From positions 1,759,501 through 1,823,500 of the forward strand of contig NZ_LN879468.1 in NCBI RefSeq assembly GCF_001403635.1: 64,000 bases of DNA, given 5' to 3'. Made by a program: the position numbers and the translations under genes. This document shows, one piece after another, positions 7,301 to 59,824 of the stretch; position 1 is the first letter of the stretch, and each line of letters starts with the position of its first letter. The notes beneath the pieces are model-generated. The model searched no databases, was not told the origin of the DNA, and saw only the letters and a list, made by a program, of their open reading frames with translations. This DNA comes from Clostridium massiliamazoniense (lineage in GTDB: Bacteria > Bacillota > Clostridia > Clostridiales > Clostridiaceae).

Positions 7301-7360
7301 ATTCTTGATTACGAAGGAAACAAAAACAAAGCCATTCTTATTTCCTTCGTAATCAAGAAT
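7301..7360 (-). terminator. Riboswitch-controlled terminator before add
   Basis: Two 20-nt arms (7301-7320 and 7341-7360) are perfectly complementary around a 20-nt loop, and a run of eight T follows on the minus strand. The first arm contains the 3' half of aptamer stem P1, so terminator and aptamer cannot form together. Ligand binding should therefore turn the gene on. Confidence 0.9.
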
Positions 7361-7412
7361 TATTGGTTCTTGGTAGAGACTCCCTAACCATATTATAGGG
7401 ATTATACGAAGT
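7345..7412 (-). promoter_or_regulatory. Adenine riboswitch aptamer upstream of add
   Basis: Read on the minus strand, P1 (ACTTCGTA with TACGAAGG) encloses TATAATCCCTATAATATGG, AGTCTCTACC and an AAGAACC/TTCTTG hairpin, the purine riboswitch core. The discriminator base before the 3' half of P1 (GAT-TACGAAG) is U, which selects adenine over guanine. Its position 110 nt before adenosine deaminase fits that ligand. Confidence 0.93.
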
Positions 7413-7530
7413 TCCTAATTTTTTATTATTTATATTTTATCATCTTTTTTTAATAAATCAATATATTTTTTAATTTATTTAATAATTAACATTCTCAATT
7501 TCACCATATTTTGTATGTATATATAATAAA

Positions 7531-24025: not shown

Positions 24026-24700
24026 ATGACTATAGACTTTAATGATTTAAAAAAAGCTAAGTTATTTTCTGGATTTTCTGATGATGATTTAAAGCAATTA
24101 AAAAATTCTAGAAGATATTCAATTAAATCTTATAAGGCTAATGATGTATTATTTATTGAAGAGGAACATTGTGAACATTTAAGTGTTATTTTAAGCGGTA
24201 AGGTTGAAATTCAAAAACTTGACTCAAATGGAAATATTCTTATAGTATCATCCTTAGAAACTGGTAATATCTTTGGTGAAAACTTACTATTTGGTGATAG
24301 AAGCGAATATCCTATGTCTGTTGTGGCTAAGGAAGATTGTACTGTTGTACATATAAACAAAGATTACATATTTAAATTATGTACTGAAAATGTAGATTTC
24401 TTACGTGAAATCTTAAGATTATTTTCTAATAAAGCTCTTGTTTTAAGCTCTAAATTAAAACAAGTTAGTATGAAATCCCTTAGAGAAATGATTGCACATT
24501 TCTTAATATATAAATATAATCAAACTAGAAATCCAATTATAGAAACACATATGACAAAAAAAGAATGGGCTGAAAAACTTGGTGTTCAAAGACCTTCATT
24601 ATCTAGAGAATTAATAAAAATGAAAGAAGAAGGGCTTATTGACTATAATAGAAAAGAAATTATAATAAAGGACATTGAAAGATTAGAAGAATTTGTTTAA
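24026..24700 (+). CDS. Crp/Fnr family transcriptional regulator
   Basis: This 224-aa regulator has an N-terminal cyclic-nucleotide-type jelly roll (about residues 10-125, with LSGKVEI and ETGNIFGE), a long dimer helix and a winged HTH from about 150. The recognition helix reads VQRPSLSRELIKM: Arg replaces the Glu of Crp/FNR, so the target half-site should differ from TGTGA. There is no Cys cluster at the N-terminus, so it is not an FNR-type oxygen sensor. AAGGCGGTG precedes the ATG. Two tandem candidate small RNAs lie directly downstream on the same strand, each with TGTCA-N6-TGACA over its -35 box, a plausible target for this protein. Confidence 0.9.
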   Translation: MTIDFNDLKKAKLFSGFSDDDLKQLKNSRRYSIKSYKANDVLFIEEEHCEHLSVILSGKVEIQKLDSNGNILIVSSLETGNIFGENLLFGDRSEYPMSVVAKEDCTVVHINKDYIFKLCTENVDFLREILRLFSNKALVLSSKLKQVSMKSLREMIAHFLIYKYNQTRNPIIETHMTKKEWAEKLGVQRPSLSRELIKMKEEGLIDYNRKEIIIKDIERLEEFV

Positions 24701-24734
24701 AATTTGTTCAAAATTTTAATATAAATTCTATATT

Positions 24735-24772
24735 TGTCACATAATTGACATATTGTTGCTGTATATTAATAC
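24735..24772 (+). promoter_or_regulatory. Promoter and palindrome of small RNA A
   Basis: TGTCACATAATTGACA (24735-24750) is a 5-6-5 inverted repeat. Its right half is part of the -35 TTGACA (24745-24750), followed after 16 nt by TAATAC. Binding of a Crp/Fnr-type dimer here would cover the -35 box. Confidence 0.65.
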
Positions 24773-24778
24773 TTGTAA

Positions 24779-24919
24779 CGTAGCTAAAACACTAATTTAA
24801 TTTTACCCCTTAAATTAAACGTCCTTGAAATTCGTCCCCCTTACACTAATTTCAAGGTATGTTTCTTTTCACCAAGTAGAGAGCCTAGGACAACGGAAGT
24901 CCTAGGCTTTTTGGTTTTT
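24779..24919 (+). ncRNA. Candidate small RNA A (C-rich loops)
   Basis: A start about 7 nt after the -10 and an end at the T-run would give an RNA of about 140 nt. Hairpin 1 (TTTAATTT 24796-24803 with AAATTAAA 24812-24819) shows CCCC in its loop. Hairpin 2 (CCTTGAAAT 24823-24831 with ATTTCAAGG 24849-24857) shows CCCCC in its loop. The terminator (AGCCTAGGAC 24882-24891 with GTCCTAGGCT 24899-24908) has loop AACGGAA, and outer ACCAA/TTGGT may extend the stem. No ORF fits. C-rich single-stranded loops are typical of Firmicute regulators such as RoxS/RsaE that pair with ribosome-binding sites; homology to these is not claimed. Confidence 0.75.
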
Positions 24920-24960
24920 CTAATTCTTTCTACAAAAATTATTAATATAAATTTTATATT

Positions 24961-24998
24961 TGTCACATAATTGACATATTAGTACTGTATATTAATAC
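24961..24998 (+). promoter_or_regulatory. Promoter and palindrome of small RNA B
   Basis: The TGTCACATAATTGACA inverted repeat (24961-24976) is identical to that of copy A. It overlaps TTGACA (24971-24976), with TAATAC 16 nt further on. Conservation of the palindrome and -35/-10 boxes, while the spacer varies, supports function. Confidence 0.65.
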
Positions 24999-25004
24999 TT
25001 GTAA

Positions 25005-25147
25005 CGTAGCTAAAACACTAATTTAATTTTACCCCTTAAATTAAGCATCCTTGGAATTTGTCCCCCTTAAACTTATTTCAAGGTATGTTTCTTTTCACCA
25101 AGAGGCATCTAGAACAACGGAAATTCTAGATGCCTCTTTTGGTTTTT
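25005..25147 (+). ncRNA. Candidate small RNA B (tandem copy, C-rich loops)
   Basis: This is a second copy, 226 bp downstream of the first and about 90% identical up to the terminator. Hairpin 1 keeps its CCCC loop. Hairpin 2 is CCTTGGAAT/ATTTCAAGG with one G-U pair and the same CCCCC loop. The terminator stem is wholly different in sequence (GAGGCATCTAGAA 25102-25114 with TTCTAGATGCCTC 25124-25136) yet perfectly paired, and the loop keeps ACAACGGAA. This covariation is the strongest sign of an RNA product. It ends just before the convergent metG paralogue. Confidence 0.75.
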
Positions 25148-25151
25148 AATT

Positions 25152-26777
25152 TTATTTTCTTTTGTCTTTTAATACTTTTAACTCTTCCTTAACTCTACTT
25201 ATTGGAATTCTTTCAAAAAGAAAATCTATAATTTCTAAGGATATTTCTTTCTTAGTAAGTGGTTCCCAATACTTTTCTGAGATATTTAACATCTTTCTTA
25301 ATTTTTCTGTTCCTCTTGGCATAAACGGCTCTAATAAATTACAGAAATTAATAACTATATATAAACAACCTCCTATGACTTCTTCAGCCTTTTCTGGATT
25401 ATTCCTTATAAGTAGCCATGGTTTATTACTATCAAAATATTCATTTCCTAATTCCACAATATCTAAAATTCTTTTTAATGCAGAATTCATATTTCCGAGT
25501 TCAATCTCATTACCTATGAAATTATAAGCCTCTTTTACACTTTCAAGAATATCTTTATTAACTTCATTTATAACAAAGTTCCCTTTATAATATTTATTAA
25601 CAAAAGTCAAAATTCTATTTATAAAATTCCCATATATACCTAAAAGTTCATTGTTATTTACTTTAATAAAATCCTTCCAACTAAAATTAGTATTTCTTTT
25701 TTCAGGTCCATACTTCAATAAATAATACCTTATAAGGTCTTCACTATAATTGTCTGATAAATAATTAGCCCAAATAACCCAATTTCTATTACTTGAAAAC
25801 TTCTTTCCTTCTAAACTCATATACTCAGATGACAAAATTCTAAAGTTTGTTTTATCATAACCTATTCCCCTTAAAATAGATGGTAATATGATGCTGTGAA
25901 AGGGGATATTTTCTTTTCCATGAACTAAATAAACTCTACTATCTTCACTATTCCAATATTTATTAATTTCATTATTATCTCCTAAGTAATCCATAGTTGA
26001 AGTTAGATATGATAAAATAGCTTCTATCCACACATATATTTTTTTATCTTTAAAACCTTCAATAGGTACTTCAATTCCCCAATCAATATCTCTAGATAAA
26101 GTCCTGTCTCTAAGCCCTTCATCAACATACTTCTTAGTTAATTCAATAGCATTTTTTCTCCATCCTAAATCTTTTTCTACAAGTGAATTAATATAATCCT
26201 CAAAAGCAGATAATTTAAAAAATAATTGTTTATTAGCTCTAAGAATAGGAACACTTCCACAATTAATACAAGCTTTATTAGAAAGTTGTTCTGGTTCAAT
26301 AAGTTTAGAGCAATTATCACATTGTTCACCAGTAGTAATTTTACTACAATGAGGACAAATTCCCCTTATAGACCTATCTCCAATAACCTCTCTACATTTA
26401 GGACAGTAATATTCCTCAACATCCTTACCATAAATAAAGCCATTATCATAAAGTTTTAAAATAAACTCCTGAACCTTTTTAGTATGCCATTCATTATCTG
26501 TTTTTGAGAAAATATCAAAAGAAAAATTCAAACCTTCAAAAGTACGTTTAAACTCTCTATGAAAATAAGAACTTACAGCCTTTGGGCTTTTGTCCATTTC
26601 TTTAGCTTTATTCAAAATAGGTGTTCCATGACAATCAGATCCAGACACAAAAATAACATCATCGCCTCTAAGTCTATGATACCTTGCTATAACATCACCT
26701 GGAATCCAAGAAGAAACTCTCCCAATATGAAGAGAACCATTAGCATAAGGCCATGCATTTCCAACTATAATTTTCAT
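25152..26777 (-). CDS. Second methionyl-tRNA synthetase, short form
   Basis: This 541-aa class I synthetase would charge tRNA-Met. The HIGH motif is HIGR at 17-20. The connective domain has four CxxC knuckles (CPKC, CPHC, CDNC, CINC), so two zinc sites, unlike the single site of its neighbour. The KMSKS loop is altered to KFSSN (LEGKKFSSNRNWVIW). There is no C-terminal tRNA-binding domain. It belongs to a different MetRS branch from the housekeeping enzyme at 26917. Such second enzymes can give insensitivity to MetRS inhibitors in Gram-positive bacteria; that is inference here. It has no T-box of its own. Confidence 0.9.
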   Translation of the reverse strand: MKIIVGNAWPYANGSLHIGRVSSWIPGDVIARYHRLRGDDVIFVSGSDCHGTPILNKAKEMDKSPKAVSSYFHREFKRTFEGLNFSFDIFSKTDNEWHTKKVQEFILKLYDNGFIYGKDVEEYYCPKCREVIGDRSIRGICPHCSKITTGEQCDNCSKLIEPEQLSNKACINCGSVPILRANKQLFFKLSAFEDYINSLVEKDLGWRKNAIELTKKYVDEGLRDRTLSRDIDWGIEVPIEGFKDKKIYVWIEAILSYLTSTMDYLGDNNEINKYWNSEDSRVYLVHGKENIPFHSIILPSILRGIGYDKTNFRILSSEYMSLEGKKFSSNRNWVIWANYLSDNYSEDLIRYYLLKYGPEKRNTNFSWKDFIKVNNNELLGIYGNFINRILTFVNKYYKGNFVINEVNKDILESVKEAYNFIGNEIELGNMNSALKRILDIVELGNEYFDSNKPWLLIRNNPEKAEEVIGGCLYIVINFCNLLEPFMPRGTEKLRKMLNISEKYWEPLTKKEISLEIIDFLFERIPISRVKEELKVLKDKRK

Positions 26778-26916: not shown

Positions 26917-28851
26917 TTATCTAACTTGACTTCCAGTTTTTAAGTCTCCTGGATTTACTAATATAAGTTCTGAATCATCTGAAGGTGCTGCTGCTAGTAT
27001 CATTCCTTCTGATATTTCCCCTCTTAACTTAGCTGGTTTTAAATTAGCTACTAAAACTACATTTTTTCCAACTAAATCTTCTGGTTTATAATGCATAGCT
27101 ATACCTGAAATAACCTGTCTTGTTTCTCCACCTAAATCAACCTTTAATTTTAATAATTTCTTAGCCTTTTTAACTGGTTCACATTCTAAAACTTTAACTA
27201 CTCTTAAGTCTATTTTTTCAAAATCTTCTATAGTTATTTCTTCTTTTATTGGATTTACAGCTAACTCATTATTAACTTCTGCTGCTGCTTTTGCTTTTAA
27301 AGCTTCAAGTTCAGCTAATTTAGCTTCAACATCTATTCTTGGGAATATAACTTCACCTTTATTAACCTTTTCTCCAGCTACTGTTCCATCAAATGATTTA
27401 ACACTTTCCCATGTAGTATTTTTTGTGTTTAATTGTTCATTTATTTTCTCACTTGTTGAAGGTAAGAATGATGATACTAAAACTGAAGCTATTCTTAATG
27501 ATTCTAATAAGTTATAAAGAACTGTACCTAATCTTTCTTTTTTAGCTTCATCTTTAGCTAGTACCCAAGGCATAGTTTCATCTATATATTTATTGGCTCT
27601 ACCTATAAGTTCCCAAATGTATCCTAAAGCTTCTGGTATTTTTAAATTTTCAATAGCTTTTTCTACTTTTACTGGAGTTTCTAAAGCTAAGCTTATTAAC
27701 TCTTCATCAATAGTTTCTTTAGCTGTAGGAGCTTGAATTACTCCACCAAAGTATTTCTCTACCATAGCTATTGTTCTAGATAATAAGTTACCAAGATCAT
27801 TAGCTAAATCTGAATTTGTTTTCTTTATGAATATTTCATTATTGAATAATCCATCTGAACCAAATGGTATTTCTCTTAATAAGTAGTATCTAACTGGGTC
27901 TACTCCAAATTCATTAACTAATACTACTGGGTCTACAACATTACCTTTTGATTTTGACATTTTTCCACCGTCAACTAGTAACCAACCGTGTCCAAATACT
28001 TGTTTAGGTAGTTCTTGACCTAAAGCCATAAGCATAATTGGCCAATAAATTGTATGGAATCTTAAAATATCTTTTCCTATTAAGTGTACATCTGCTGGCC
28101 AATATTTTTTGAATAACTCATCATTTTCACTACCGTAACCTAAAGCAGTAATATAGTTTGATAAAGCATCTATCCAAACGTAAATTACATGGTCTGTATC
28201 GAAAGTTACTGGAACTCCCCAATTGAAACTAGTTCTTGAAACACATAAATCTTGAAGCCCTGGTCTTAAGAAGTTATTTAACATTTCATTTTTTCTTGAT
28301 TCTGGTTGTATGAAATCTGGATGACTTTCAATATACTCTATTAATCTATCAGCATATTTACTCATTTTGAAGAAGTAAGCCTCTTCTTCAGCCTTTTCAA
28401 CTGGTCTTCCACAATCAGGACAATTACCATTTACAAGTTGGCTTTCAGTCCAGAATGATTCACATGGTGTACAATATAATCCTTCATATGAACTCTTATA
28501 TATATCTCCTTGATCATATAGTCTTTTAAAGATATCTTGAACAGCTTTTACATGATAATCTTCAGTTGTTCTTATGAATTTATCATATTTTATGTCCATC
28601 ATATCCCAAAGTTCTTTGATACCTGCAACTATTTCATCAACATACTCTATTGGAGTTACGCCTTTTTCTTCTGCTTTTCTTTGTATCTTTTGACCATGTT
28701 CATCAGTTCCAGTTAAGAACATTACATCATGCCCTGTTAATCTTTTAAATCTTGCTAAAGCATCAGCTGCCACTGTTGTATAAGTATTACCTATATGCAA
28801 CTTAGCTGATGGATAATAAATAGGTGTTGTAATATAAAACTTCTTACTCAT
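26917..28851 (-). CDS. metG: Methionyl-tRNA synthetase (housekeeping)
   Basis: This 644-aa enzyme has TPIYYPSAKLHIGN at residues 9-22 (HIGH variant HIGN). Its zinc knuckle has two CxxC pairs (CTPC, CPDC). The canonical [12 protein letters not shown] lies near residue 300, followed by an anticodon-binding helical domain. A C-terminal EMAP/Trbp111 tRNA-binding domain spans about 540-644 (EEITIEDFEKIDLRVVKV, VGKNVVLVANLKPAKL). It is the B. subtilis-like form that dimerises through its C-terminus. A methionine T-box leader precedes it. Confidence 0.96.
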   Translation of the reverse strand: MSKKFYITTPIYYPSAKLHIGNTYTTVAADALARFKRLTGHDVMFLTGTDEHGQKIQRKAEEKGVTPIEYVDEIVAGIKELWDMMDIKYDKFIRTTEDYHVKAVQDIFKRLYDQGDIYKSSYEGLYCTPCESFWTESQLVNGNCPDCGRPVEKAEEEAYFFKMSKYADRLIEYIESHPDFIQPESRKNEMLNNFLRPGLQDLCVSRTSFNWGVPVTFDTDHVIYVWIDALSNYITALGYGSENDELFKKYWPADVHLIGKDILRFHTIYWPIMLMALGQELPKQVFGHGWLLVDGGKMSKSKGNVVDPVVLVNEFGVDPVRYYLLREIPFGSDGLFNNEIFIKKTNSDLANDLGNLLSRTIAMVEKYFGGVIQAPTAKETIDEELISLALETPVKVEKAIENLKIPEALGYIWELIGRANKYIDETMPWVLAKDEAKKERLGTVLYNLLESLRIASVLVSSFLPSTSEKINEQLNTKNTTWESVKSFDGTVAGEKVNKGEVIFPRIDVEAKLAELEALKAKAAAEVNNELAVNPIKEEITIEDFEKIDLRVVKVLECEPVKKAKKLLKLKVDLGGETRQVISGIAMHYKPEDLVGKNVVLVANLKPAKLRGEISEGMILAAAPSDDSELILVNPGDLKTGSQVR

Positions 28852-28889: not shown

Positions 28890-29165
28890 AAAAAAGCCTC
28901 TATGGAAAATCCCATAGAGGCGTTTACTTACGCGTTACCACTCTAATTTTAGACTTTGTCACCAAAGCCTACTCTGTAAGTAGAAGTAAAATTTAAAAAG
29001 GTAAATATATAAAGATTTTCTTCTACTTTGCAAGATAACGGTTGCTACCGTATTTCCCTAAAAAACTCTCAGGAAATATGCTCCGAGGCCATCTTCATAA
29101 AACTTTTAACACTGGCTTTCACCTCTCCCAGCTCTCTTTTAGTTAAAAACATTTTACTACTCTTC
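28890..29165 (-). promoter_or_regulatory. T-box leader of metG (methionine)
   Basis: On the minus strand, stem I starts with AGAGAGCTGGGAGAGGTGAA. ATG triplets lie at the expected specifier position, and the T-box GTGGTAACGCG (about 28931-28942) is complementary to the tRNA acceptor end. The terminator GCCTCTATGG/CCATAGAGGC (28896-28921) with a T-run completes it. Uncharged tRNA-Met should allow read-through. Confidence 0.92.
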
Positions 29166-29208
29166 TCTTCATAGCATTATTATCACTATTTTTTTATTAT
29201 ATTCTTAT

Positions 29209-36316: not shown

Positions 36317-36359
36317 GAAAAATCAAATTTAAATTAATATAAAAATACTAAAATACACC

Positions 36360-36543
36360 TTGATGATAGCTCTCCACAAAATTGTGACAGTGATGCATAT
36401 ATTATATACACCCCCAGCTATAGAACCCTTAAAGCATTATTTCTATAACTTCGGCAACTATTCCTTTCACTTAGCTTCATAGTGCTTAACTCCACTAAGA
36501 TACTTTTAATAAATTGCGCCTCTACCTCTCAACTATTCACTTT
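36360..36543 (-). promoter_or_regulatory. Lysine riboswitch (L-box)
   Basis: Read on the minus strand it has the L-box core in order: GAGAGGTAGAGGCGC, then GAAAGGAATAGTTGCCGAAG, then GCTGGGGGTG, GCATCACTGTCACA and GTGGAGAGCTATC. The length of about 180 nt and the five-helix order fit the class. Confidence 0.92.
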
Positions 36544-55611: not shown

Positions 55612-55875
55612 ATAAAAAAACTCCATCCCAAAAGGACGAAGTTGAAATTCGCTATACCACCTAAGGTTTAAAGCCCTAAAACATCAAGGCTTAAATTTTC
55701 AAGTACTTACATACTCTATCCATTAACGCTGGCAAACGGGTTAGCTTAATTGAAAAATCTTTCAGCCTTCCAACTCATAGGTGATTTTCTTTAAGGTTCT
55801 TTATAGCTTTGCACCAAACAGCTACTCTCTGAAAAAGATGATCTTAAGTACTTTTCCTACTCATAGTTTTTTAAA
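55612..55875 (-). promoter_or_regulatory. T-box leader of ileS (isoleucine)
   Basis: On the minus strand AGAGAGTAGCTGTTTGGTGCAA begins stem I, an ATC triplet lies at the specifier position (AAAATCACC), and the T-box AGGTGGTATAGCG is near 55650-55662. The terminator ACTTCGTCC/GGGATGGAGT ends in seven T near 55613. Confidence 0.9.
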
Positions 55876-59520: not shown

Positions 59521-59542
59521 AGATCTCTCATCTTTATAATGC

Positions 59543-59625
59543 TTTCCTACGCTGGTATTACCCAGATCAGGTATGAGGGTTAATAGATTCATACATCTAT
59601 CTCTCAGTCAAAATGACACCCCTAG
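59543..59625 (-). promoter_or_regulatory. TPP riboswitch
   Basis: On the minus strand it reads GGGGTGTC, CTGAGAGATAG, ACCCTCATACCTGATCTGG and GTAATACCAGCGTAGGAAAG. These are the conserved thi-box elements in order, including the pyrimidine-binding CTGAGA and the pyrophosphate-sensor helix. Confidence 0.95.
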
Positions 59626-59824
59626 CCAAATATTCCTATTAAATTATACATCTATTTAAAGTAAATTTCTACAAGTTTTCATACTTTTTTATTTCTGCCC
59701 TTGTTCTTCTTTACTTTAAAATAATCTTAGTTTATATTCTAAAAAATTTAAGTAAAGTCTCTAAGACCTTCTCTGTAAGAGTTTTATACTTCATTTAAAA
59801 AATCTTATGCTCATTAGGTATAAC

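Follow-up and report, generated by a model that had tools for sequence, protein, structure and literature searches.

Tandem genes of a candidate clostridial small RNA family with a direct-repeat promoter box and predicted anti-Shine-Dalgarno segments

The window, that is, the whole stretch of 64,000 nucleotides from Clostridium massiliamazoniense analyzed here, holds a 167-nt unit at 24710-24876 that is repeated at 24936-25102 with a spacing of 226 nt. The two units sit between the gene of a Crp/Fnr-type regulator and a convergent methionyl-tRNA synthetase (MetRS) gene. They are identical at 155 of 167 positions (93%), in good agreement with the original prediction of a tandem unit of about 165 bp with a step of 226 bp and about 90% identity. 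In each copy, promoter-like boxes precede a conserved 5' part that contains ACCCC; a hairpin whose loop presents CCCCC follows, and a terminator with the loop AACGGAA comes last. The twin elements are a real tandem pair and members of a conserved RNA family. The features of the locus are the following.

24026..24700, + strand: Crp/Fnr-type regulator gene, context only (Pfam cNMP_binding and HTH_Crp_2)
24735..24751, + strand: promoter box of copy 1, direct repeat TGTCAC-ATAAT-TGACAT, conserved in relatives
24762..24767, + strand: -10 hexamer of copy 1, TATATT, 10 nt after the second half-site
24775..24918, + strand: small RNA copy 1, predicted transcript with putative ends (model match 24774-24868 plus terminator)
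24801..24812, + strand: predicted anti-Shine-Dalgarno segment of copy 1, TTTTACCCCTTA, conserved in relatives
24818..24863, + strand: C-rich hairpin of copy 1, loop CCCCCTTAC at 24836-24844 (fold, covariation)
24877..24918, + strand: terminator of copy 1, AACGGAA loop (terminator scan, fold)
24961..24977, + strand: promoter box of copy 2, TGTCAC-ATAAT-TGACAT
24988..24993, + strand: -10 hexamer of copy 2, TATATT, N10 as in copy 1
25001..25145, + strand: small RNA copy 2, predicted transcript with putative ends (model match 25000-25094)
25027..25038, + strand: predicted anti-Shine-Dalgarno segment of copy 2
25044..25089, + strand: C-rich hairpin of copy 2 (fold, covariation)
25100..25147, + strand: terminator of copy 2, same AACGGAA loop with another outer stem (15-nt arms, 100% complementary; fold)
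25152..26777, - strand: methionyl-tRNA synthetase gene, convergent, context only

Both copies fold far better than shuffled sequences (z -5.5 and -6.2; 0 of 200 shuffles equally good). Promoter-like boxes and a terminator hairpin were found in each copy, as predicted. The generic promoter scan, with 16 sites vs 10.3 (sd 3.6) in shuffles, is weak by itself. The generic terminator scan picked up the first terminator only, because the 9-nt loop of the second exceeds the limit of the scan. The transcription start of copy 1 probably lies near 24775, which would place the predicted RNA 5' end near GUAAAGUAG.

Two claims about these hairpins were confirmed in part. Two hairpins with C-rich loops had been proposed, and the one with the CCCCC loop is supported by fold and covariation. 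The first hairpin, with a CCCC loop, appears in the minimum-energy fold but is absent from the centroid, and its covariation score was 0.042 vs 0.033 in shuffles. It was therefore rejected as a conserved element, and the CCCC is better seen as unpaired. The terminator stems had been described as completely different in sequence yet perfectly paired. Their outer parts do differ with pairing kept, but the inner CTAG is common to both, as is 86% of the 21-nt core.

No convincing reading frame was found over 24720-25147, consistent with the predicted absence of a coding frame. Five frames of at least 20 aa overlap this interval: four begin with TTG or GTG and measure 23-41 aa, and the fifth, of 20 aa at the 3' edge, begins with ATG. 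The TTG-started frames at 24825-24905 and 25051-25149 (+ strand) have FVPL-LISRYVSFHQ in common. As the stem covaries in other species, we attribute this similarity to conservation at the nucleotide level.

No Rfam 15 family reaches its threshold at the twin elements, and none does so for the RNA at 10 other loci, where only T-boxes were detected. A permissive search of the region (up to E 5) returned 16 rows, all far below threshold. The proposed assignment to the RsaE/RoxS type did not hold as membership: RF01820 matched 24775-24912 with 19.5 bits against a threshold of 79 (E 0.75). The best permissive E-value came from an opposite-strand match to a deltacoronavirus 3'UTR model (26.2 bits against a threshold of 174.8) and was taken as chance. 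LhrC, which we take to be RF00616, gave no row at the Rfam gathering level and was missing from the permissive results too. No published description of such a clostridial sRNA family was found, including in the available parts of PMC3879012, PMC9229411, and PMC8217750. Single members may already be listed or studied, for example as sr8384 (Yang et al., 2020) or among the RNAs of Chen et al. (2010). The small regulatory RNA family is apparently undescribed so far.

A search with the regulator protein led to 27 loci. The RNA follows the regulator gene in eight of these, two of them with two copies, and the eight loci together with the window supplied a starting alignment of 12 sequences. RNAalifold predicted 11 pairs in the C-rich hairpin, each (11/11) with at least one compensatory change. 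The covariance model built from these sequences, R1, matched 76 of 206 genomes of one family (the family of genome G001, taken as Clostridiaceae from its named members). Over 81 sources, R1 gave 90 matches (87 distinct sequences) with 96.6% of cells paired and both-side changes in all 11 hairpin pairs; covariation reached 1.053 vs at most 0.168 with partners slid, in an alignment that leans toward the model because it was fitted to it, which does not apply to the unfitted 12 sequences. A second model, R2, whose members come partly from the same genomes as those of R1, had 163 matches in 79 of 225 genomes of the order, with more than one copy in 27 genomes, at least five in 8, and at most 10. 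All 79 fall among the 206 genomes of the one family, and in a class sample 7 of 391 genomes matched, all seven already within the 79; these large-set counts are lower bounds owing to the stricter Infernal filters used. Furthermore, 45 loci, selected because they held a box hit or an R2 copy, yielded 43 matches at E 0.1 or better, with 93.1% of cells paired and covariation of 0.945 vs at most 0.200 slid.

In these alignments, the stem of the C-rich hairpin covaries while its loop stays. Conserved loops with compensatory stems, the covariance-model check suggested with the original prediction, were thus found in many species, and the idea of a clostridial family beyond Rfam was borne out by the matches and by the lack of any Rfam 15 model that reaches it. 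A T-rich end immediately follows the C-rich hairpin in 84 of 90 members and 40 of 43 further matches. Eight of the 90 members, two in each of four genomes, are followed by the AACGGAA-loop terminator, and none of the 43 is.

Three tandem copies were seen at L123 (4108-4716) in a genome that belongs to the genus of G001, with no adjoining Crp/Fnr gene. A second paralogue class (L202, L204, L205, L206, L208, L212, and L216) combines a TTTTTTTCATAAATATTTACCC-like segment with a GAGTAACA-type hairpin, and three of its members (L204-L206) lie within 70 kb of one genome. No copies were found on plasmids or on viral contigs (one exact 27-mer).

The promoter box is conserved as well. The relaxed pattern TGWCAY-N5-TGWCAY occurs in 80 of 90 promoters, in 78 of them 39-40 nt before the first base of the model; the other 10 do not fit the repeat as written. 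The best -10 hexamer follows the second half-site at N10 in 53 of the 80, at N13 in 19, and at other distances in 8. The plain box TTGWCAC-N5-TGWCAYA was found at 11 places in a set of 13 genomes (reversed control 0) and at 49 places in a second set of 38 (reversed control 2), giving 60 hits in 51 genomes vs 2 for the reversed pattern, with a hit in 39 of the 51. Among 55 distinct box sites, a terminator-like hairpin lies within 200 nt in 40 and has CCC in its loop in 37, vs 27/400 and 6/400 in random windows of the same loci. R2 matches at E 0.1 or better lie just downstream of 44 of the 55 boxes (40 at E 0.01), although many of these belong to R2's own alignment. Either an R2 match or a CCC-loop terminator follows 47 boxes. 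Judged from these patterns, the family is multi-copy and possesses a direct-repeat promoter box of its own.

The remaining eight boxes are located in L160, L166, L182, L183, L194, L195, and L197, and one of two in L213. By eye, the sequence downstream of the box appeared RNA-like in L183 and L197. In L160 and L166, from two species, the box near position 1500 has a lipoprotein gene on one side and a different gene on the other, and no RNA-like unit follows. L155 (- strand, about 1881-1790 and 1547-1440) likewise holds a tandem pair of RNA-like units with this type of box. They carry a segment complementary to AGGAG-ATG-AAAAAA, and the facing gene is CooS/Hcp-like by eye. These units are possibly a sub-family for GGAG sites.

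In enteric bacteria, FNR drives the small RNA FnrS, and the twin RNAs could likewise be the output of the adjacent Crp/Fnr regulator, bound to the palindrome TGTCA-N6-TGACA. Both window boxes do read as this palindrome. In the window, as in 26 of 90 members, the regulator gene is found immediately upstream. In the other 64, however, the gene is absent from the locus, although it may be located elsewhere in these genomes, and most of these members keep the box. A MetRS gene faces 73 of the 90 members from downstream, and members located elsewhere retain the 5' part and the hairpin, mostly with the box. The family is not tied to the neighboring Crp/Fnr gene. Nor do the half-site pairs favor a palindrome: among the 80 promoters, TGTCA/TGACA occurs 13 times, TGACA/TGACA 29 times, TGACA/TGTCA 12 times, and TGTCA/TGTCA 8 times. 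As the third position of either half accepts A or T with hardly any preference, the palindrome is just one of several combinations. Flanking bases agree somewhat better with a direct than with an inverted repeat (r 0.55 vs 0.14), with little difference in L1 distance (0.90 vs 1.01). The palindrome was therefore rejected, and control by the adjacent regulator is unlikely.

The same comparisons bear on the explanation that a chance duplication copied nothing more than a terminator or the 3' end of the regulator mRNA. The first copy lies close behind the regulator gene and ends in a terminator, but a conserved promoter of its own, the 64 members without the regulator gene, and unlinked copies in many genomes make this explanation extremely improbable.

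With its TGTCA repeats at 11-bp spacing, the clostridial box resembles the enteric Pho box, and its geometry suits PhoB-type regulators, so that the RNAs might serve phosphate starvation under PhoP. No phosphate gene was recognized at the box sites read, and the predicted targets described below point to exported proteins generally; we consider a phosphate role improbable. No two-component operon was recognized after the box sites read, most flanks of which are without annotation.

The search for targets started from the conserved 5' part. In the window, the complement TAAGGGGTAAAA is confined to the two copies. The segment in most relatives is GCATTATTATTTACCCCTT or a close variant, the complement of which reads Shine-Dalgarno, spacer, and ATG, and a second class of relatives has TTTTTTTCATAAATATTTACCC instead. 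In the clade of the window, the segment CACTAATTTAATTTTACCCCTTAAATT is anti-Shine-Dalgarno only and has no anti-AUG part. The predicted pairing with ribosome-binding sites is supported by these sequences.

The target test covered 12 multi-copy genomes outside the clade of the window, whose RNAs are without the anti-AUG part. The complement AAGGGGTAAATAATAATG, with up to two mismatches, gave 113 hits vs 50 for the reversed pattern. Many of the 113 are the RNA genes themselves; 54 others end in ATG, and 40 of these have a frame of at least 60 aa. By a simple N-terminal hydrophobicity rule, 30 of the 40 genes look exported (17 of 25 by cluster). For the control C1 (AAGGAG, other spacer), this was the case for 4 of 24 genes (p 7e-6) and 3 of 19 clusters (p 8e-4), and for C2 (AAGGGG, other spacer) for 5 of 12 genes (p 0.04) and 4 of 10 clusters (p 0.15). 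The latter control weakens the export signal, as with 5/12 exported the difference is weak. Because of the way the loci were drawn, both controls are parts of their hit lists: for C1, 112 hits, 30 supplied and 20 hand-picked loci, 42 with ATG, and 24 usable; for C2, 73 hits listed, 30 supplied loci, 26 with ATG, and 12 usable. In a background of loci not chosen by the complement, which includes the surroundings of sRNA genes and 60 control loci, 70 of 230 non-redundant genes look exported (p 5e-4 vs 17/25 clusters). A GGGG Shine-Dalgarno alone was rejected as the export signal (20/54 vs 50/176 background genes, p 0.24), and the 17/25 clusters differ from these 20/54 genes as well (p 0.015). 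The export signal seems to need more than GGGG, in a test that is small, uses rough start calls and control parts drawn by hand, and covers one lineage. Inside the window, the link of a GGGG Shine-Dalgarno to export was not significant (8/13 vs 11/25, p 0.50); a duplex ranking of this small set placed mostly membrane or secreted genes at the top.

Among the matching genes are chemoreceptor-like and lipoprotein-like groups (the latter in six genomes), genes for choline-repeat proteins and for a solute-binding protein, as well as cytosolic ones, for example one that is ribosomal protein L31-like by eye. In the flanks of unlinked copies, 14 related ORFs at 13 loci form one single-linkage cluster among 142 ORFs. 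Pfam analysis of eight of the 14 gave choline-binding repeats in seven and a bacterial Ig-like domain in one. These choline-repeat neighbors were rejected as obvious targets, as, by eye, little of their start regions is complementary apart from the Shine-Dalgarno sequence.

The conservation of loop and 5' part while the stems change would also suit an RNA that acts via a protein, with the C-rich loops as the site of an RNA chaperone or RNA-binding regulator instead of mRNA pairing. In two classes that diverged separately, however, the 5' part reads as complementary to a start region, and the genes matching this complement share a class. A protein site thus has a small chance of being the right explanation.

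The organization of the family resembles that of known systems. As described in the available part of PMC3091779, streptococcal csRNAs are driven by a CiaR box, TTTAAG-N5-TTTAAG, located 10 nt before the -10 hexamer, and carry anti-Shine-Dalgarno and anti-AUG segments. Compared with this part of the description, the clostridial RNAs have the same hexamer-N5-hexamer direct repeat, with 10 nt to the -10 hexamer in 53 of 80 promoters and both window copies, several copies per genome, and a terminator hairpin; most relatives also carry a putatively unpaired segment complementary to Shine-Dalgarno and AUG. Unlike the csRNAs, their box is TGWCAY (80/90) instead of TTTAAG, they carry C4-C5 motifs and a C-rich terminator loop, and the copies of the window's clade are without the anti-AUG part present in most relatives. 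The family matches occur in one clostridial family only.

LhrC1-5 of Listeria, according to the accessible portion of PMC5880928, is multi-copy, depends on the response regulator LisR, binds the Shine-Dalgarno region with a loop, and targets surface or envelope proteins such as oppA, tcsA, and lapB. To the extent of that portion, the clostridial family is alike in its several copies and in the proposed response regulator, Shine-Dalgarno pairing, and exported targets, but LhrC is absent from the 16 permissive matches of the region. RsaE/RoxS shares C-rich single-stranded motifs and a weak permissive match on the right strand. It differs in promoter code, multi-copy spread, and score (19.5 bits vs 79), and RoxS is regulated via redox or NO signals in the part of PMC4409812 available.

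Genome comparison reveals a conserved RNA with its own promoter, an ACCCC-bearing 5' part, a C-rich hairpin, and several copies per genome. From these features we infer transcription, a response regulator, pairing, repression, an exported-protein regulon, and action in trans. In our main reading, to which we assign a probability of about 0.6, the twin elements would be a tandem pair of genes for trans-acting, anti-Shine-Dalgarno sRNAs of a clostridial family, driven by a response regulator and directed at exported proteins. By analogy, the family is best read as a clostridial counterpart of csRNA and LhrC under a two-component regulator. An OmpR/PhoB-type response regulator would bind TGWCAY-N5-TGWCAY and switch on the RNAs, whose unpaired ACCCC segment and CCCCC loop would pair with GGGG-type Shine-Dalgarno sequences. 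Pairing would extend to the start codon in most relatives, not for the window's copies, and would block translation at the start region. Favored targets may be lipoproteins, choline-repeat cell-wall proteins, and membrane receptors. By masking the ribosome-binding sites of exported proteins, the family would thus probably switch off their translation and ease the burden on the cell envelope, much as LhrC reduces surface proteins in Listeria.

A bolder version of this reading is put forward tentatively. A Clostridium response regulator with a regulon made up almost wholly of sRNAs might run an anti-secretome under envelope stress, in which multi-copy, diversifying RNAs recognize the GGGG Shine-Dalgarno and AUG of exported proteins and shut down their translation, while copies settle beside cell-wall proteins of the controlled kind.

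Few sRNA regulons have been worked out in Clostridium, and a family in 79 genomes with a clear promoter code offers a concrete hypothesis for the tuning of secreted and envelope proteins in these anaerobes. If the main reading is true, Firmicutes would have arrived at one design three times separately, in csRNA, LhrC, and the clostridial family, and the regulator that acts on the clostridial box could be searched for directly.

Beside the twin elements, two adjacent methionyl-tRNA synthetase genes were observed, at 25152-26777 (541 aa, the shorter one) and 26917-28851 (644 aa); two such ORFs were seen at related loci as well. Ordinary riboswitch-type elements above Rfam thresholds are also present in the window, all on the - strand: two T-box leaders (28913-29181 and 55629-55873) and lysine (36359-36532), purine (7330-7429), and TPP (59527-59633) riboswitches.
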